DNA of 64,000 bases from positions 46,748,001 through 46,812,000 of the forward strand of contig OX485804.1 in the NCBI GenBank assembly GCA_950295325.1. Reading direction: 5' to 3'. Numbering within the stretch: position 1 is the first letter of the stretch; the number at the start of each line of letters is the position of its first letter. Source of the stretch: Polytrichum commune (lineage: Eukaryota > Streptophyta > Polytrichopsida > Polytrichales > Polytrichaceae). A program made the translations under genes and the position numbers. The notes under the pieces are model-generated. The model saw only the letters and a list, made by a program, of their open reading frames with translations. It had not been told where the DNA came from and ran no database searches. Below are positions 32,601 through 42,420 of this stretch, one piece after another.

Positions 32601-33184
32601 CCTTTGCGCACTTGATTCTATGTGCAACCTAATTGAATTAATTCCTTCATAAGGAGGAATTTGATTGAAGAATGAAGCTCTTTCAACCATGTACACAACA
32701 CAAATAACACGAAAGTGACACTACAACACTACAATAGAATTTCGTGAACATGCTACACTCAACTTTAGTTATGTAGATATAACTATATTTAACTACAATT
32801 TTCGGCAAGTCAGATCGCAAACAACTATAGTTACGAAAGACGACTAGTTAACCAATAATTGAATTAGTTGGTTAGTTGCCAAGGTCTGAAGTTCTCATCT
32901 CCCAATTATCAGAAACAAGTCAACGTATGCTATGAATATGCGTCGGAAGGGAAGCTTGTCCATGAAAATTTATGGTCATTTCAAATCATGAAATTAAATT
33001 GGGATTTTTTTTTTAAAAACTTGTGATTTCAATTTTCCAAAATCACACATGTACTACACTTCTGCAAAATGGAAATGGGACTGTCTACCTTAACTTTATA
33101 CCAAAATGCTAGAAATGTGCAAGTCCTAGTATTTACTTGCAATATATAATAGAGATATCATTGGCAACCAAACTTCAAAGCAAT

Positions 33185-33193
33185 AAAAAAAAA
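33185..33193 (-). terminator. Pol III terminator of the interrupted tRNA-Pro
   Basis: A run of nine T residues on the minus strand, immediately after the tRNA 3' end. This is the usual RNA polymerase III stop and supports the tRNA orientation. Confidence 0.6.
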
Positions 33194-33250
33194 GGGTAAT
33201 TGGGAGAATTGAACTCCCGACCTCTTGCACCCTAAGCAAGAATCATACCA
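33194..33250 (-). tRNA. tRNA-Pro(AGG) 3' fragment, gene split by the LINE
   Basis: Read on the minus strand this is the part of a tRNA from the D loop to the acceptor end. The anticodon stem CTTGC/GCAAG encloses the loop TTAGGGT (anticodon AGG, proline). The T-arm is GGGAG-TTCAATT-CTCCC and contains the B box. The 3' acceptor strand AATTACCC has one base more than a clean 7-bp pairing with the 5' strand GGGTATT, so the gene may already have been slightly defective. The missing 5' part, with the A box, lies at 41900-41935, beyond the LINE. The last 21 bases (33230-33250) are the target-site duplication. Confidence 0.88.
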
Positions 33251-33722
33251 TGAAAACCTCACCGAGGTAATTAAAGAGAAAGGTAACCAGTACAAAACCC
33301 CAGAAAAACCGGGGGGGGGAGGGCAACCGGGGCAAACCGGAGCCGAAGTGCAAAAAAACCCACCGAACAACGGGGGAGAGGCCGGTGAAAACCGGAAACT
33401 AACCTGTCAGTAACACAAGCCTAATCACCAACAAACAGGGAGGGGGAGAGGAAGGCGCGTGAGCATCCCCAGCGGAGGGCGCGTCACCGCGAACGGCCGG
33501 CACCGAGAACAGGCCCGGGCGCGGGTCCAGAAAGCCCGGCAGGGGCGGGGGGCGGGAAGCTTCTAGACGCTCGCACGCGTCAGCAGACCGTACGCAGAGG
33601 GGGAGGCGGGAAGCCCAGGGGGGGGGAAGCGCAGAGCGCGTAGACGGAGAGCCAGGTGAGGCGGAGCACAGACACTCCGGGGAGAGAGGAGCCGGATTCA
33701 CTCGTGGGCGTGCGGCGAATCA

Positions 33723-34805
33723 TCACTCACTGAGGGAGGGCGCAGTCATGTCGATGTCGTGAGCCCACTTGTAGACTCCAAGGAGCGAACCAGAGGGCGG
33801 AGTGGGGAACAATTTCCGACAGTCGGCTTTAGTAAGGACGTACCCGATAGGTAAGGATTCAAGAAGGGCTTGTCTTCGTTCCTGTTCGATTTCTTGCAAA
33901 AGTTCGTCAATTTCTTGATCAATCTTGTCTTCGAACTCTGACATAGAGATGCCGAGCTTGCGTTGGATAAACCTGTAAGGGTTATCTGTCGGTGGGGAGG
34001 GGGGAGCGATACCTTTGTACTTATCGAGTAGAGTACGCTGGTTCCGTTGAGGTAGCGAGAGGGTAGTACGTGAGGTACCACTGCTTTCCTCCAAAGCCCC
34101 CGAAGTGGCCGGGTGAGCTAGCGTCACATCTATGGGTCCTACTGAGGTGGACGTTGTGGCCTCGAAGGTCCGACGACTGCCCGGCCCAAAAAGGCATCGC
34201 CTCTTCGGCCTGCTGTGTGGCCTGTCACTTTGAGGTGGACGTTTACCCGAGGATCTAAGGATTTCACCCGCCGGTGGGTAGGCCGCAGATGCGCGAGGCT
34301 CTTCCATAGCCGGCTCGAAGCCGGGCTGGGTACCCCCGGTTGGTTGGAGCATATGTTTGCTTTTCCTTCTATAACACTTCCGTTTGGGTCGGCTCGTCTT
34401 CCTGGGGAGCGTACTCCCAAAGGGGGAGATGGCCGGTCTGGTATCAATTAGTTCCTCTGGGTCAGCATTCTCCTTGCCTCTGTGAACCTGCGAGGTCCCA
34501 ATTAGTGGTGTCGTGGCGCCTGTGTTGAGATCGCGTCGCTGAAGGGGAGAATTACCTGTACGAGGTTGCACGGGTGGATTGCTCTCAATTGATCTGCTGG
34601 GTGTTCGTGTCGTGTTGGGCGCAGGTTGTGGTGAGCCGTGATAGCTATCCTCTTTGTGGGTATCGGCGTCGCCATTGGGCCCTGCATTGTGTATAACAAT
34701 TTGGAGCGTGTCAATAGGGGTGTCTCGAGGTTCTGGGGTCGCATTAGTCCGGTAAGTATCCTCCTGGGGGGGTCTGTGGGATGTTGATGTTTTGAAGAAA
34801 CTCAT
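33723..34805 (-). CDS. LINE ORF3, unknown protein (360 aa)
   Basis: An intact frame from ATG at 34805 to the stop at 33723, downstream of reverse transcriptase, where plant LINEs normally have no gene. The first two thirds are Pro/Ser/Thr-rich and look disordered. They contain two basic clusters, RPKRKCYRRKSK and SRPKRRC, that resemble nuclear localisation signals. The C-terminal third is better ordered: an acidic helix with ISMSEFEDKIDQEIDELLQEI, then a compact end with GYVLTKADCRKLFPTP. I recognise no domain. Before the MITE inserted, ORF2 would have ended at 34744, so ORF3 would have started 62 nt inside ORF2 in another frame, an arrangement that fits reinitiation. It is open in a copy whose other ORFs are broken, which could be chance or recent constraint. 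Confidence 0.65.
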   Translation of the reverse strand: MSFFKTSTSHRPPQEDTYRTNATPEPRDTPIDTLQIVIHNAGPNGDADTHKEDSYHGSPQPAPNTTRTPSRSIESNPPVQPRTGNSPLQRRDLNTGATTPLIGTSQVHRGKENADPEELIDTRPAISPFGSTLPRKTSRPKRKCYRRKSKHMLQPTGGTQPGFEPAMEEPRASAAYPPAGEILRSSGKRPPQSDRPHSRPKRRCLFGPGSRRTFEATTSTSVGPIDVTLAHPATSGALEESSGTSRTTLSLPQRNQRTLLDKYKGIAPPSPPTDNPYRFIQRKLGISMSEFEDKIDQEIDELLQEIEQERRQALLESLPIGYVLTKADCRKLFPTPPSGSLLGVYKWAHDIDMTAPSLSE

Positions 34806-37800
34806 CGATGAGTGCCGAGAAATCACGGGGGGATCACACCCCCTTACATTTCATAACCACATGCGATAAAAGTTTGCTACCCTATATTACATGCCATAGA
34901 TAATTTTTAAAATTATGATATTTTTTCTACATACACATAACCATTGATAATATCTTTTGCATATTTTTTTGAAATTTTTAGTCATCTTTATTTTTTGTAG
35001 TAATTTTTTTAGTTCAATGTTGCGTCATTCTAGTTAGAAACGGTATGTTTTATAAAAAAAACAAATCATCAAATTTGGTTACCAATTTTTACTATGTATA
35101 TCTACTCATGAAAAAAAAATCATAAACTTTTGAACCATTTTGGCTATGCTTTATGTAAAAAGTAGATTTTGTTTTATCACACGTGGTGTTCAACTTGACA
35201 ATGAAGTGCACCCCCCGTGCGAGAAATTTGATCTGGTGGTGAATTCCGCCTCTGGGTCGGGTGAGGGCGACAGTCGGTTTATCCGAATCGGTGTGATTGT
35301 CCATGCCCCTAATTCGATTGGAAGAAACTCCTTATGCGGTGTGAGATTCCATCTGAGATTGCCTCCCCTCATCCTGCCGAAGATTTCTGCCTGTGACCAT
35401 ATTTTCTGAAAGCATGAAATCATTTCGTGTCGCTTTTCTTCGTTTCTGTTGTGTCTAAAAAGCTCCTTATAGGCTTCCATAGCACTGTATATTGTGTTCC
35501 TCCAGGCTTGCCACAAGATAACTCCCAAGTGGAAGTGATCTTCCCTAAATGCAACTTCGACTCTTTGGCACCAGATTGCCCAGAGCAATTGGGCTCTAAG
35601 GGTGTCCCAGGGTGTCTCCATAGTTATTCTAAATGCTGAGGCTGTATCCCACCGTAAATCTTCCTCCATGGCTGGTCCTGCTGCTTCGGTCATTAACCCT
35701 CTACTAATGTCCCTCCATGTCTGGTAGCTGGGCGGTAGCCCAGCTACCTGCCTAGTGTTACGAAAGAGATCCCACGCTCTTCTAATCTCTGTACATTCTT
35801 TGAATGCATGTTGTAGTGTCTCCCTATCCTGTGTTGGGCATAATTGACATTGGTTTGATAAACCGACTCTTTCCCTCCAGGCCCCAACTGGTAGTCCTTC
35901 GGTAAGGATCAGCCATTGCATGGCCGACACCTTTCTGGGGAGATAGGGGTGCCAGATGCGGTTAAAAAACTTCGCCCTCTCTTTGCTGTTGTACCCATAA
36001 GCTTCCAGCTCCTCGTCCACTTTCATTTGATGATTGTTTTGTTTCATGGCGGCTCTGTACCCCCTCTTGGTACAATAGTTGAGCACGGTAGTGTCGGGAA
36101 GCGCACCAATTCGCCTCCACTGCCACTCCTTGGGGTCCCACTCCAAGTTGCAGACCCAGTTGTTCCCCCACATCCACAGGGTAAGTTCAAAGTCGTCTAC
36201 TTCTAGTGGATTGAAGTCCATAACTGTTCGTTTCGCCCCTCCACATTTGACTATGCGGACTTCACTGTATTGCCCAACGGGTAGCGGGGAGTTGGTGGCA
36301 ACTTGTTGTAATTGTTCCGTGCTCAGTTTAAGATAAACTGTAATTTCCATGGGGTCAGTCCTGGTGATTTGGTAGACTTGTGTAATTCGACCATCCTCTT
36401 CTTTCGCTGCGATCCATAAACCTTTAGTGGATGGGATGAGGGGAATTGGTTGCCAGGGGATGCTATTGATAACTCGCGTATAGAGCTGGGGTGTTGTCCT
36501 GCTCCTTCGTAGGTTTCTATGTTTTGCGAATGGGATCCATCCTCTGCCATGTTCGTTCACTATGTCTTTAATTGTTTGAATGCGCTGTTCCGCCCAGAAC
36601 TTCATATTGGTTTTGGGTTCTGTACCCCACTGAACGCCCTGTTCGTTGGTTAAGAACCGGTTGCCGAATAGTGGCTGCCGGGTAATTTCATCCCACGTGT
36701 TTGGATCCTGTTGCTCGATACCGGATTGAATTGTCTGCCATGCTTTAATCACACCTTGCCACATACCTGAGCCTTGCTTGACTACATTTCTTGAGTTCAT
36801 GATCCAATTTGAGTGGGCCGGCCACCTGCCTTTGCGTGATTGCTTTGTTTGCGCAACTCGATATCGCACAAGCGACTTCCAGGGTTCGTACCCCACCGAG
36901 AGCCCGCGTGTCAAAAATTTTATGAGTAGCACCGAGGCTTGCCACTTTGGATCTAAAAAATTTATACCCCCTCTAACAATGGGTAGAACCGCAGTGTCCC
37001 ATTTCACTTTGGCTCGCGCGTGAGATTCTTCCCTGCCCGACCAAATGTAGTTGCGTACCGCAACTTTTGCGAGTTTGAGAGCCTTTCCTGAGTAATCTGT
37101 GCAAGAGGCAAAGTACCATATAGAAGATAACACCACCTGATTCGCTATCATTATTCTGCCGGCAAGTGAGAGAGGTTGCTTGACCCATTTCGAGAGGTGT
37201 TTTCTAATTTGACTCAGCATCTTACCATCCTTCTCTTTTTGGGGAATATGGAGTCCGAAGGGATAGCCAAGGTACCGCGTCACTTCTCCAGGTAAGAGCC
37301 ACTTCAACCCTGCTTCCTCTCCCCATTGCCGTGCTCTTTCATTATGTGACAACCATAGTCCTACAGATTTGTGTAGGTTCAACTTTGCGCCAGAAGCTTC
37401 TCCAAACCGATTGATTACGTTGAGGGCCCTGTCCATGTTGTCTCTAGTACCATCTAGGAAGAGTAGCGTGTCATCTGCAAACATTTGATTCGTAATGCTT
37501 GACTTGTCCGGAAGCGTGAGTCCTTTAACTCCCCATTCTGGGATGTTGCAGCATTTGTCCCAGTACATCGACTGTAAGCATGAAGAGATATGGTGCTAAG
37601 GGACAACCTTGATGCACTGATCTCTCCAGGGTAAAGGGCTGGGATTGTTCGCCGTTGACTATGACAGTGGCGGACGCGTTCTCGTTCAGTGCCATAACCT
37701 GATTGACCCAAGTCGGATGGAATCCCATCCTGGTCATCACTTGACGAAGGAACGTCCAGTTAACATGATCATAGGCTTTTTCAAAGTCTAATAATAACAT

Positions 37801-39651
37801 GCTAAGGTCTTGTTTAGTTTCTAGTGTCCATTCTATGGCTTCGAAAGCCAAGAAGATGTTATCCAAGATGCACCTGTTGGGAACAAAACCTGTCTGGGAG
37901 GGTAGTATCTAGTGATGTAGGAGCGGCTTCATTCTATTGGCTAGTATCTTTGCTATGATTTTGTATGGGGTGTTTAGAAGTGAAATTGGTCGGAAATTTT
38001 GGACTCTACTTCGGTCTTCGGATTTCGGGAGTAATGCTATTTTACTAATATTCAACTCGGCTGCAATGTGCGTTTGCTCTACAGATTCAGCTACAAAGTT
38101 TAAGATATCCTCTTCAATATCCTCCCACAAGGCTTGATAAAATTCTGCAAGGATCGTATCCGTGCCTGGTGACTTCCCAGCAGGTAATTGTTTCACTGCC
38201 TCAGTCACTTCTTCCATGGTTATAGGCCGAAGGAGTTCTAGGTTGTGTTCTGCAGTTACCGGTTGAGTAATACATTGCAAACAGTTCTCCCGTGCCCCGG
38301 CCGCATCTTCTACTTGGTCATCCCGCGTGTAAAGTTGCTTGTAGAACGCGAGTATGTGCGATTCCAAGTCAGATTGCTTAGTTAGGATCCTGTCTCCATT
38401 TGTGAGTTGAGTTATGTTGAACGCCTGTCTTGTCCCTTCGTGAAATTCAAAAAATTCTTTTGTGCATCGGTCCCCCACCCGGGCCCATTTAGAAAGAATC
38501 GCGGTTTCTTGAAATTGGAATTTCTATTGTCTCACCTCGTGTAACACCGCCTGGGCGTCGCTCAACTTCTCTCGTGCTTCCTTTGAGCCCCAGTTGTGTT
38601 GTAGCTCCTCCTCTGCGGCGATGATATCTTCAAACTGAGACAAATAGGTTGTTTTCCATTGTTGTTTCTGGTGTTTAGTAAGCTCCTCTGATTTTAAACG
38701 GATAGCCTGCGTGACAGCCACTATCTTGGAGTTCCATGAATCGATGTCCGAGGTCATCACTCCTTTCCATACTGCCAATAAAGCTGCTTTACACTCCGGG
38801 TTCTGTAGAAGGCCTTTATTGAAACTGTGTGGTCTTGCCTTCTTCCTGAGTGGACCTTTGGTATGTAGGACGACCCCGGCATGATCTGAAATGTCTTGTA
38901 TGGTAGGAAGAATTTCGGTTGACCCTCCATTTTGTTCTAGATGTGGTGTGATATAGAACCTATCAATTCTAGTCTGTACCATGGTTTCGTCATTATGCAA
39001 ATTTGACCAGGTGAAAGCCTTACTATTTCTGCGATGGTAAGAGTCTATGTGATAAGCATCCCTTACCCCTAGCTTGAGAAGCAATTTATTCCATGACTCA
39101 AGTTTCCTGGTGCTAATACTAGTCTTCGTTGTTCCCCCTTGCTTATCCTGTATGCTTTCTATATTGTTAAAGTCACCCGCGAGCACCCATTGTGCCTCTG
39201 GGAGTTATGTTTGAGCTAGATGTGCCCACATCATCGCGCGAGGACTTGTATGACTAAATCCATATATGTTTATTATCCCAAGTTGTAGGGCTGGGCTAAT
39301 ATTTAGTACTACATATTGCGCTCTTCCAGGAAATAGTATTCCGTGGTGGGTGACTACTGTCGCCATTTTGGCTGAGAGAACAATCCCTGTTCCTCCTTTA
39401 AAACGGCCCGTTTGTGCTGAAAACGCCGCTTCGTTCCACAAACTAATACCTCCTCTAGTTTCCACAAACCTGGCATGCTTGAGGCTTGCCGCCTCTGGTA
39501 ATTTCGTTTCCTGGAGGAGCAGAATGTCTGTAACTGGGGTCGTGTTGAGGAACACTGATTTTATTTCCTTCCTTTTTCTCCTTCCTAGAAATCCCCGTCC
39601 CAAACTTCGGGTATTCTGTGTGGAGATAGTAATTGCCTCATTGTATTTCAT
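34744..39651 (-). pseudogene. LINE ORF2: endonuclease/reverse transcriptase, inactivated
   Basis: Read from ATG near 39651. The APE-type endonuclease shows TQNTRSLG, LLLQETKLPEA, GGTGIVLS and, further on, LAGDFNNIES. The reverse transcriptase shows GKSPGTD, NFRPISLLNTPYKIIAKILANR, DFEKAYDHVNW and FADDTLLFLDG (FADD in place of the commoner YADD). The C-terminal zinc motif is C-x2-C-x9-H-x4-C in QCQLCPTQDRETLQHAFKEC. In-frame stops lie near 39204, 38522 and 37910, and a frameshift near 37540. The original C-terminus is separated from its last 24 codons (34815-34744) by the MITE. No RNase H domain is apparent. Confidence 0.92.
34824..35219. mobile_element. hAT-type MITE nested in the LINE
   Basis: A 396-bp AT-rich insert with the 9-bp terminal inverted repeat CACGGGGGG/CCCCCCGTG and an exact 8-bp target duplication CGAGAAAT (34816-34823 and 35220-35227). 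A second inverted block, CACATGCGATAAAA versus CACGTGTGATAAAA, lies further in. It has no ORF. The AT-rich body contrasts sharply with the GC-rich LINE. It replaces the true end of ORF2 with about five foreign codons and a stop. Confidence 0.93.
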
Positions 39652-39817
39652 TCGGATTGGCTTGGGAATTGGTCTCCTCACTGACGACAACAAAGCGATT
39701 TTGGTGAGCCGCCGCTGCCTCAGATGCTGGGGTGTGAATGGATGACTCTGGTAAGATCATCTTATACCAGTGTGTTCTATCTTCGACAATTGATTCTATG
39801 TCATCAGAGGGGTGTAG

Positions 39818-41808
39818 CTATATACGGTCCTTTATTTCACTTGGTAGGCTGCACCATCTGTATGTGAACCCTCTCCTTGGTTTTATCTTGCTTTCCTGCA
39901 CTGGAACTGTGACAAACAGTGTGCAAGTATGGTCTCCTTCTAGTTCACCCTCCCAACTGGCAAACCACTTCCCTTGCTTCCACCTTTGTAACGGGTTCAA
40001 GGAGGGATTTGTGAAGACTAGTACCTTGTACAACGCTTGAGCCGCCTCATTTACAACGTGCTGCCTCACTCTTGATTCCGTCCAGGGAACTCCAGCTAGG
40101 AGCTCGGCGATGTGTACCTGTACAATCAATTTGGGTGCGGATGCTTTTGTACTTACCAAGTATTTTGTCGTCTCGTCTGTCCCTCCTTTGATGAGGATTG
40201 GGATTACCCTAATGGTTTTCCTTAATGAGGTTGGTGTGTGGGGTGTGTTAAGGGCGATCCAAAAATCATCAGCTAGTCTTCCGGACCTGTACCCCTGCCT
40301 AGTTATTGGAGCTGAATCCGGTGTTTTGCTTGCAAGTTTCCCTTTTCCCTTGTCCCCTCCATTTGGCTGATCTTGAGCCTCCTGCTGGGTTGGTTTCGTG
40401 CGCCATACAAATTGTGGGGATTCTATTGGTGGAGGCGAAAGGTGTTGTTCTCTGCTAGCTGCTTTGGTACTGTGGAGGGTAGTTTGGGGAAATTTACTTC
40501 GTCCTGTTGGGGTACGTCGGGTATGTCTATCTCCTTCTCCTTATCTGCTGATTTTTGTTGAGGTTCTTGAAGTTGGGACTTAATGGGTGAAGCTGACGCT
40601 TCTTGTGTCTTAGGTGATGGTGATTGGTCACGCGTTCCGCTAGCCTCTGGATGTGCCTGTGTGTGAGGCGTACTTGTATGTCCCCTCTCATCTGAGTTTG
40701 GACTGTGAGATTCTGGTATGCGCGTCGGAGACGAATGTGGTGTTCGGCTGGGAGTTGCGTGTGTGTAGGTGTGATTGGGCTGACCATTTCTCTGACCTGT
40801 GTTTCGTTGCATACTTCTCTGTCTGTTTGCCAACTCCTTCTTTGGGCAGTATCTCACCGGGTGGTCGCGTGAGCGACACCGCCCACACTGGTTGGGAAGG
40901 CCGCTAAATTCCAATGCATGCTCGATTGAGCCTTCCCCATCTAGTCTTGGGAGGATCACTGTATGTGGTAATGCATCTAGATCTTTAACTAGTAACCGTA
41001 TGCGTGGCCCGCACAATTTAGCTCTATAGGCTTCTGAACTGTCAATAGAAATTACTTGACCTATCTGTTCTCCTACAGTTTGGAGAAATGTGTTGTCTCG
41101 TAGGACTTTGCACAAGTTAACTACTTGCATCCAGACTGGATAGTCAAGTCTATCCGTATCCTGGGGCGTATTAGCATCAAAGTGCGGACGCCAACTAGAC
41201 AAGTATATAGCGGCGGATTCGCAAACAAGGTCAGCTTGATTTAATGCATGAATCCTCCCTTCTGGCTTCTCAAATGTGACCTCAAAAATATTATTTGCTT
41301 TTATAGATATTGAATCAAGAGATGGGTGTAGGGTTTCCCGGGCCCAAGCTGTGAGAGCTTTAAGCCCGGGGTGCTTACCTTGTATGCGCCCGAGCAGCGA
41401 TACTGATGCTGTAGTGTCACATTGGGAGCGCAGGTTGGCCAGCAGTGCTGCCGGGATCTTAACTACGACCTTTCGCGGATCCACTTGCTGGGGAGCGTCC
41501 TCGCTTGGTGACTTGTCCATGCTATTAGCTGGTGTGTGTAGCGGAGCTTTGAAATTTTGATTCTTGTTCAAGTCAGTTAACCTGGCTGCTGGTTCCTGAG
41601 AGGATTCCTCTCCTACCTGCGCGAATGGTCCATTACCTTGGGCTGCCGTGACAAACGTTTCCTTCCTCCTCCAAACACTGTAACTACACTGTCTACTGCT
41701 ATCTCTCGCCGCTCTGCGTTGTTGTGCGTCACTACTCTTGTTTGTGGAGTCATTGGATTCGTCATTCAAAGGCGAATCCCTGTGTAATAACTTCGAACTA
41801 AGATTCAT
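39818..41808 (-). pseudogene. LINE ORF1: DUF4283-like RNA-binding protein with CCHC zinc knuckle
   Basis: The main frame runs from ATG 41808 to 40423 (461 codons). After a Ser/Thr-rich N-terminus there is a DUF4283-type region (SLLGRIQGKHPGLKALTAWA, then YPVWMQVVNLCKVL and IGQVISIDSSEAYRAK), ending in the zinc knuckle CGRCRSRDHPVRYC (C-x2-C-x4-H-x4-C). A long Pro/Ser/Thr-rich tail follows. The piece at 40159-39818, in another frame, has a plausible folded block (TCTLFVTVPVQ, GFTYRWCSLPSEI) and is probably the C-terminal part separated by frameshifts and stops around 40160-40420. In plant LINEs this protein binds the element RNA. Confidence 0.85.
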
Positions 41809-41899
41809 CAGGACACGTTAAGAATTTCGCATTCTATCCATCTTCCTAAAAAACCGGATCTCACCCGGTTTTTGCGGAGCTCCGCCTCAGACTCTAGCC

Positions 41900-41935
41900 C
41901 CCTAAGCAAGAATCATACCACTAGACCAAATACCC
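41900..41935 (-). tRNA. tRNA-Pro(AGG) 5' fragment, gene split by the LINE
   Basis: Read on the minus strand from 41935: GGGTATTTGGTCTAG, the acceptor 5' strand and the A box (TGGTCTAGTGG), followed by the D arm and the first half of the anticodon arm, up to the proline anticodon. The last 21 bases (41920-41900) are the target duplication, repeated at 33250-33230. Neither half can make a tRNA alone: this half lacks the B box and T arm, and the other lacks the acceptor 5' strand and most of the A box. Confidence 0.88.
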
Positions 41936-42068
41936 ACTCATGCCTATTGTTATCAATATTATAATAATAATTTCTATTGTGGTTTAACCGAGTGTGAAAC
42001 TTTGGAAAAATTGCCCGGGCCCAGTCCGCCATGGCAAACCCACATTCCTAGGTTCAGGTTTTGTGTGG

Positions 42069-42420
42069 TATAAGGTAGATGGATCTTTAAATGGTTATTT
42101 TTTCCAACTAGTGCATTTCTCATAAGATATATTCATGGCTAGTATATCTGAATCCACGGTGTAGCCACTTTTCTCATAATTTTTGGAGCTTCATATGAAC
42201 ATCTTATTCATTATCAAAAGGAAGTTTTTCGTGCTCATTAAGTGGTCATACAAGTCTCCATAAACCATGTTGAGCATTGAAATCATAATGGGTATCATAT
42301 TGTGAGCACGTAGTCCACTCTCATTCGACTACATGTGTTTTTGGTATGCGTTGTTGGAGCCACACCTAACCACGTACCACTCAAACAAGTTGTTTGATCA
42401 AGAGAAGTAATCGACCTCAT
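42069..42420 (+). repeat. Dispersed repeat family A
   Basis: It starts ATAAGGTAGATGGATCTTTAAA and follows the family order through GTAGCCACTTTTC, CATCTTATTCATTATCAAA, GTGCTCATTAAGTGGTCATA and GAGCACGTAGTCCA to ACCACTCAAACAA. Confidence 0.6.

Follow-up and report, generated by a model that had tools for sequence, protein, structure and literature searches.

Does a plant long interspersed nuclear element (LINE), a kind of element generally regarded as scattered, ever select tRNA genes as its target? The question is raised by a window of 64,000 nucleotides from the moss Polytrichum commune (assembly GCA_950295325.1, contig OX485804.1, positions 46,748,001 to 46,812,000), on the minus strand of which an L1-type LINE of 8649 bp (33251-41899) interrupts a tRNA-Pro(AGG) gene. 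An earlier reading made from the letters of the window (hereafter the sequence-only reading) had considered either a tRNA-targeting lineage or a one-off hit. Comparison across the genome supports the lineage: genes of eight isotypes (Pro, Trp, Leu, Glu, Gly, Lys, Asp and Val) carry copies in the same part. Judged from these sequences, the window element is most probably a disabled member of a lineage of plant L1-type LINEs that home on the internal promoter (A box/D-arm) of tRNA genes and tRNA-derived repeats.

The LINE is flanked by an exact 21-bp repeat, CCCTAAGCAAGAATCATACCA, which extends within the tRNA from the D loop to slightly beyond the anticodon (Table 1). On the minus strand, the flanks with a single repeat copy read GGGTATTTGGTCTAG-TGGTATGATTCTTGCTTAGGG-TGCAAGAGGTCGGGAGTTCAATTCTCCCAATTACCC, which ARAGORN identifies as tRNA-Pro(agg), and a run of nine T (T9) follows the rejoined gene. 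The sequence-only reading had described this tRNA-derived duplication, its extent from D loop to anticodon and the recovery of a contiguous minus-strand tRNA-Pro(AGG) with its T9 run upon excision, all of which held, with positions correct to within one base. In the unjoined window ARAGORN reports a 'tRNA-Pro' at 33194-33263, 13 nt of which are LINE sequence, and the Rfam score of this fragment (25.3 bits) is under the 29-bit threshold. The GC content per kilobase is 44-52% within 33251-41899 versus 29-37% in the adjoining kilobases. There is no poly(A) at the 3' junction, where the element has a terminal short inverted repeat, ACCTC GGT GAGGT, then TTTTCA. At the 5' end, the matches found elsewhere (16/16) begin at query base 13-22, and the outermost ~12 nt (41888-41899) are therefore regarded as junction filler and not as shared element. 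Both open reading frames (ORFs) are split across two frames and ORF2 has in-frame stops, from which we conclude that the window copy is dead. We also considered, and rejected, that the 5' end holds a self-cleaving RNA of a known type; an Rfam search of 33000-42100 with E values up to 5 gave three matches, all under their gathering scores and one of them the tRNA fragment.

We searched this one genome, comprising 407.8 Mb in 64 contigs, seven of which are chromosome-sized; a 146.6-kb contig carries a tRNA-Asp that is presumably plastid-like. The 3'-terminal 300 bp of the window copy gave seven genome matches, six limited to the final ~50-70 bp, and a search with the reverse transcriptase (RT) region gave at least 58 (57 of 757 candidates scored). 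As the other copies in the RT region are 47-85% identical, the family is a diverse clade. A strict search made the 3' end visible in part of 32 downstream regions only, and a looser search together with a pattern search gave more. The window-type 3' motif, searched without the target letters, occurred at 13 places (control, 4), and a commoner version, TTTAACCTCGGTGAGGTMTTY, at 80 places with up to two mismatches (reversed control, 4). Flanks were read for 89 junctions, comprising all 80 TTTAACCTCGGTGAGGTMTTY places and nine of the window type, among which L004 came from the 300-bp 3'-end search alone. Four of the 13 window-type matches (L016, L017, L018 and L020) had two mismatches, were taken as chance and were dropped (n would be 93 with them), and L019 entered the tally under the commoner version. 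At the 3' ends of the copies read, the conserved motif abuts the target directly without poly(A). The sequence-only reading had thought the missing poly(A) tail to fit site-specific elements; the absence is indeed a family trait, but it is not by itself evidence of specificity, a conserved 3' stem-loop being known in other plant L1s (PMC3747384).

By-eye reading of the 89 3' junctions placed 21 in tRNA genes, 20 in tRNA-like repeats (a by-eye label for flanks with A-box- or B-box-like parts) and 48 in neither. The tRNA targets comprise Gly (8), Pro (5), Lys (3) and one each of Trp, Glu, Asp, Leu and Val, with Val, Lys and Asp assigned by eye against known tRNA sequences, and in 21/21 the tRNA 3' half runs with the element. 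A complete T-arm (TTCRANN loop, at least four of five stem pairs) lies 10-80 nt past the junction in 26/89 flanks versus 1/89 in the 70 nt beyond (mean of 200 shuffles 0.87, maximum 6), although three of the 26 (L080, L111 and L116) look like chance. A perfect B box was found in 19/86 flanks versus 1/86 downstream, 0 on the other strand and 0.025 in shuffles, and a B box with at most one mismatch in 31/86 versus 1/86 downstream. These counts leave out three of the 89, each identical to another flank over 40 nt; among such pairs, L074/L087 diverge beyond the tRNA and look like separate insertions, and L081/L114 look like one duplicated insertion. The cut core, GGT or else RYA one base farther on, is present at 69/89 junctions. 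Chance as the cause of the tRNA association is rejected by the B-box, T-arm and cut-core controls. The sequence-only reading had proposed tabulating the flanks of other copies, and the outcome favours a lineage.

The junctions fall into two main classes. Class 1 (39/89, 11 with a T-arm) starts with GG and is cut in the D loop, class 2 (43/89, 15 with a T-arm) has an ACA-type start, and 7/89 belong to neither. Read by eye, class 2 cuts in tRNAs lie ~5-10 nt farther along, for example before GGATAC (Glu), GTACCC (Gly) and GCAAGG (Lys). Because the cut letters differ between the classes while the tRNA region is the same, the data suggest the A box as the landmark for both.

A loosely specific L1, with an endonuclease needing only a short core (GGT or RYA by cut) and tRNA genes hit as open chromatin, would accommodate the 48 sites that are not tRNA-like by eye, 35 of which retain the short core, and also the variable length of the target duplications. 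We consider this improbable. A T-arm follows 26 of the 89 junctions even though tRNA genes must be a tiny part of 408 Mb (an RF00005 search scored 63 of 24132 candidates and gives no total of tRNA genes), tRNA-like repeats are struck at the same place, and class 2 copies sit in the same tRNA region despite other cut-site letters. Control LINEs point the same way. Eighteen loci were chosen outside the clade, from 141 zf-RVT matches and absent from the RT-region matches described above. The 3' motif occurs in 0/18 of these; ten have a downstream poly(A) stretch, taken as an end without confirmation by duplications, and a B box follows 0/10 of these stretches, with no tRNA genes (0).

The factors of RNA polymerase III (pol III) are common to tRNA genes of all isotypes, and targeting through them (TFIIIC/TFIIIB), as proposed for Dictyostelium TRE5-A, instead of direct reading of the A box by the endonuclease, is a serious possibility to which we give somewhat less than an even chance. 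The sharing of these factors speaks for it, and TRE5-A requires a functional B box (PMC5391098). Against it, the moss cuts fall inside the gene at a short fixed core, and the same register is kept in tRNA-like repeats and in at least one place that has an A-box-like sequence but no further tRNA surroundings (L064/L026, one mismatch).

Both ends could be paired for 18 copies, and target-site duplications were present in 17/18, measuring 9-21 bp (14-19 bp in 15/17), two of them with one mismatch; none was found for the L066/L116 pair. Six further 5' ends (L053, L054, L057, L058/L138, L063 and L143) were left unpaired with any 3' end. Joining the flanks with one duplication yielded a complete tRNA in 5/17 according to ARAGORN, namely Pro, Trp, Leu(CAA), Glu(CTC) and Gly(GCC), and in each of these five the duplication has its start within or beyond the D loop and its end in the anticodon loop. 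Of the empty sites, 10/17 have an A box with two mismatches or fewer, versus 2.2 in shuffles (maximum 7). Independent copies occupy the same place of the target gene, as do site-specific non-LTR elements (those without long terminal repeats) inside multicopy RNA genes. That the tRNA sequence is instead part of a composite LINE with a tRNA-derived end would agree with the tRNA pieces in some 5' extras described below, and is extremely improbable: isotypes differ among copies, the five joinings restore full genes, and intact target paralogues exist, with eight intact tRNA-Trp genes among 12 matches to the Trp 5' half. The tRNA as part of the element was rejected on the ground that joined flanks restore different isotypes.

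Some copies and targets showed further features. In L055/L041, L062/L031 and L056/L070 the matching duplications lie ~27, 22 and 32 kb apart, and later insertions are for this reason probably nested in these copies. L006 and L014 are very short 3' copies (~366 and 81 bp) with 17-19 bp duplications, and represent 5'-truncated insertions into sites of the same type. The additional letters in tRNA-Gly targets were considered as insertion scars and rejected, as intact tRNA-Gly genes bear the same letters as introns. An 11- or 14-nt intron at position 37/38 was present in 13/13 intact tRNA-Gly(GCC) loci examined with ARAGORN (L188, L190-L195, L197-L202; on C1, C2, C3, C5 and C6), from 16 of 25 matches fetched with a query that contained the intron, so that genes lacking it may have escaped notice. 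In plant nuclear tRNAs, introns are known for the Tyr and Met isotypes.

Several observations weigh against an A-box-directed lineage. Restriction to the target is not strict, 48/89 junctions adjoining no tRNA-like sequence by eye; the T-arm is missing in 63/89 flanks and a B box within one mismatch in 55/86, and the B box at one mismatch also matches the other strand in 9/86, being partly palindromic. About four of the 80 3'-pattern matches are expected at random. Four of the 17 empty sites have four to five A-box mismatches and three have three. The placement of the lineage derives from best matches and not from a tree, in sequences of one genome. The sequence-only reading had named unrelated flanks and variable duplications at other copies as the signs of an unspecific element, and both were found in part, the 48 non-tRNA-like 3' ends and the 9-21 bp range; yet 35 of the 48 keep the cut core, a number that falls to 4/48 if the core is sought 20 or 40 nt away. 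Taken together, tRNA targeting is strong but leaky, and nearer to a pol III A-box preference than to the single strict site of R2.

A mechanism consistent with these sites can be proposed. The apurinic/apyrimidinic endonuclease (APE) of ORF2, or a pol III factor bound by ORF2, would read the A box, and the bottom strand would be nicked, at class 1 sites within the D loop (5'-TACC^) and at class 2 sites ~5-10 nt beyond. Primed by the 3' end exposed at the nick, reverse transcription would begin at the 3' end of the element RNA, and the second strand would be cut ~15-21 nt off. If the RNA begins at or upstream of the donor tRNA 5' half, a jump could carry with it tRNA 5' pieces of earlier addresses.

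This last step bears on the 16 short 5' extras lying between duplication and element (L006 was excluded, its extra of >300 nt being element). Clear tRNA pieces were recognised in four, L142, L064 and L137 (each 33 nt) and L060 (15 nt, from its own target tRNA-Glu); two were marginal, L067 (p 0.01) and L061 (antisense match equally long), and ten were not above shuffles. Two copies at non-tRNA sites bear 33 nt of the tRNA-Trp 5' half, one of which (L064) has a ~6-nt leader and then a Pro-like piece. L142, inserted in tRNA-Leu, has 79 nt of upstream flank plus the tRNA-Gln 5' half, then another tRNA-Leu half, and 108/112 nt (96%) of its extra are identical to an intact tRNA-Gln(CTG) locus on C7, another chromosome. 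Because some 5' junctions thus bear tRNA 5' pieces from elsewhere, these sequences suggest that the element RNA starts at or above donor tRNA genes, pieces of which may be carried along over several jumps. Set against this are the majority of 5' extras, which are without clear tRNA content, and the C7 tRNA-Gln, which is uninterrupted in the assembly, element transcription from there not being evidenced.

The main alternative for these extras is that RT switched template onto cellular tRNA 5' halves or pre-tRNAs, with no donor transcript involved. Cellular tRNA halves end in the anticodon loop, which is where the Trp and Gln pieces stop. The 33-nt Trp halves at two non-tRNA sites and the uninterrupted C7 gene are likewise in its favour, and the L060 tRNA-Glu pieces, coming from its own target, could be local slippage. 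We nevertheless hold template switching to be rather unlikely, since the 79 nt upstream of tRNA-Gln and the ~6-nt leader before tRNA-Trp are unexpected in a mature tRNA half, the piece ends coincide with the expected end of the donor duplication, and stacked pieces (Leu and Gln in L142; Trp and Pro-like in L064) fit successive generations. Stacking was also seen at L138 (C4:37497300-37498330), a locus with three tandem tRNA-Trp genes, the middle one split by a short element copy whose 5' junction holds stacked pieces resembling, by eye, tRNA-Pro and tRNA-Asp.

A broader view, which we offer tentatively and rate below even probability, is that the element may be a parasite of the pol III A box. 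It would seek out the internal promoter of tRNA genes and tRNA-derived repeats of any kind, its transcription would begin within or above the tRNA 5' half that it has kept, and a jump could add a tRNA piece to its 5' end, as a travel record of successive hosts, with the clade-specific C-terminal domain of ORF2 as targeting module.

The proteins were best examined in L148, an 8-kb copy in tRNA-Trp with frames of 723 (ORF1) and 1845 codons (ORF2) and no stops. Its ORF2 matches PF03372, PF00078 and PF13966 above cut-off, with the APE-type endonuclease N-terminal and followed by RT, as in the L1 clade; the APE and RT motifs QNT, QET, GDFNN and SDH, and FADD, were recognised by eye. Among solved structures the RT is nearest to human L1 ORF2p (8uw3; 7.5e-59, versus 1.3e-14 for R2), as a best match and not a tree placement. 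The restriction-like endonuclease of R2/NeSL-type elements was not found, no endonuclease domain other than the APE type being matched and ~540 C-terminal residues being unassigned, and the family departs from L1-clade LINEs in its lack of a poly(A) 3' end. ORF1 has PF14111 (DUF4283) in both the window copy and L148, together with a zinc knuckle by eye, and this combination is that of a plant-type LINE ORF1. Past zf-RVT, ~540 C-terminal residues of L148 ORF2 had no Pfam match. A C-terminal ORF2 domain (window 33723-34826; L148 residues ~1480-1845) occurs in 28/32 clade 3' regions and in the window, and in 0/18 control loci; our guess is a role in targeting or in 3'-end binding.

The features of the window are collected in Table 1. 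The conserved 5'-end pattern had 17 genome matches (window counted) versus 0 for the reversed pattern, and after the hairpin there comes a T stretch (six T in the window copy) at which pol III transcripts entering from the tRNA half could terminate. On folding the conserved 3' end, a 22-nt version gave a stem at -4.8 kcal/mol, whereas the 38-nt window stretch folds otherwise.

Table 1 Features of the interrupted tRNA-Pro(AGG) gene and of the LINE within it, in window coordinates
Feature	Position	Strand	Basis
5' part of tRNA-Pro(AGG) gene, from G1 (41935) to slightly beyond the anticodon, with the 5' duplication copy	41900..41935	-	sequence; ARAGORN on joined flanks
Target-site duplication, copy at element 5' end	41900..41920	.	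exact 21-bp match
5' junction filler outside the shared element	41888..41899	-	16 other matches start at query base 13-22; tRNA match not above chance
Conserved 5' end: palindromic GGAGCTCC stretch, then AAAAACCGGGTGAGATCCGGTTTTTT hairpin	41838..41887	-	genome pattern search; fold -18.3 kcal/mol
ORF1 in two frames (change near 40420), DUF4283, CCHC knuckle by eye	39674..41817	-	PF14111 9.1e-7; tblastn to L148 ORF1 49% and 57%
ORF2 in two frames (change near 37540), in-frame stops: APE-type endonuclease, reverse transcriptase, zf-RVT	35220..39666	-	PF03372 and PF00078 (both under curated cut-off in the window pieces), PF13966; tblastn to L148 ORF2 68% and 72%
ORF with clade-specific ORF2 C-terminal domain	33723..34826	-	tblastn to L148 ORF2 1602-1834, 32%
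Conserved 3' end ATTACCTCGGTGAGGTTTTCA, possible small hairpin, no poly(A)	33251..33275	-	sequence comparison and folding
Target-site duplication, copy at element 3' end	33230..33250	.	exact 21-bp match
3' part of tRNA-Pro gene: D loop, anticodon arm, T arm/B box, acceptor end	33194..33250	-	sequence; ARAGORN on joined flanks
T9 run, pol III terminator of the tRNA gene	33185..33193	-	sequence

Elements aimed at tRNA genes or their surroundings are known from other organisms, including the planarian LIN15_SM and LIN25_SM, which have a restriction-like endonuclease, Dewa of the Tx1 clade, the Dictyostelium TRE5/TRE3 and NLTR elements, and the Dada DNA transposons. The Dictyostelium elements are likewise non-LTR and directed to tRNA genes of many isotypes, but their insertion sites are ~4-50 bp upstream of the genes or ~100 bp downstream (PMC5006619, PMC5391098), whereas the moss insertions lie inside the gene and not at a distance from it. 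LIN15_SM and LIN25_SM, discussed with the NeSL clade, are also tRNA-gene-specific non-LTR elements, but of animals and with one isotype each (tRNA-Arg and tRNA-Glu), whereas the moss element is of the APE/L1 type and strikes many isotypes (PMC4640811). Dewa is a target-specific non-LTR element at the zebrafish tRNA-Leu spacer, not in the gene as the moss element is, and Dada transposons occupy fixed sites inside tRNA genes, each family having its own target, but do so with a DDE transposase and short duplications, whereas the moss element retrotransposes and has many isotypes as targets (PMC3706591).

According to a 2015 paper, most reported target-specific non-LTR families belong to early-branched, Tx1 and R1 groups (PMC4640811). 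Among plants, poly(A) 3' ends are not universal in L1s, and L1s with a stringent 3' stem-loop (a monocot group in ME1) likewise have a conserved 3'-end sequence and hairpin, although their conserved letters (loop UCU, flank CGAG) differ from those of the moss element (PMC3747384); the term 'tRNA gene' occurs 0 times in the text of that paper. The moss element appears to be a target-specific LINE with a habit known from other organisms; no plant LINE aimed at tRNA genes was among the papers listed by literature searches that included few subscription papers. If the reading is true, plants possess a retrotransposon that breaks tRNA genes from inside and, as a further consequence, a nicking enzyme of natural origin that is attracted to the A box. 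Its 5' junctions may record donor addresses, and LINE site choice would become testable by comparing two cut classes within one clade.

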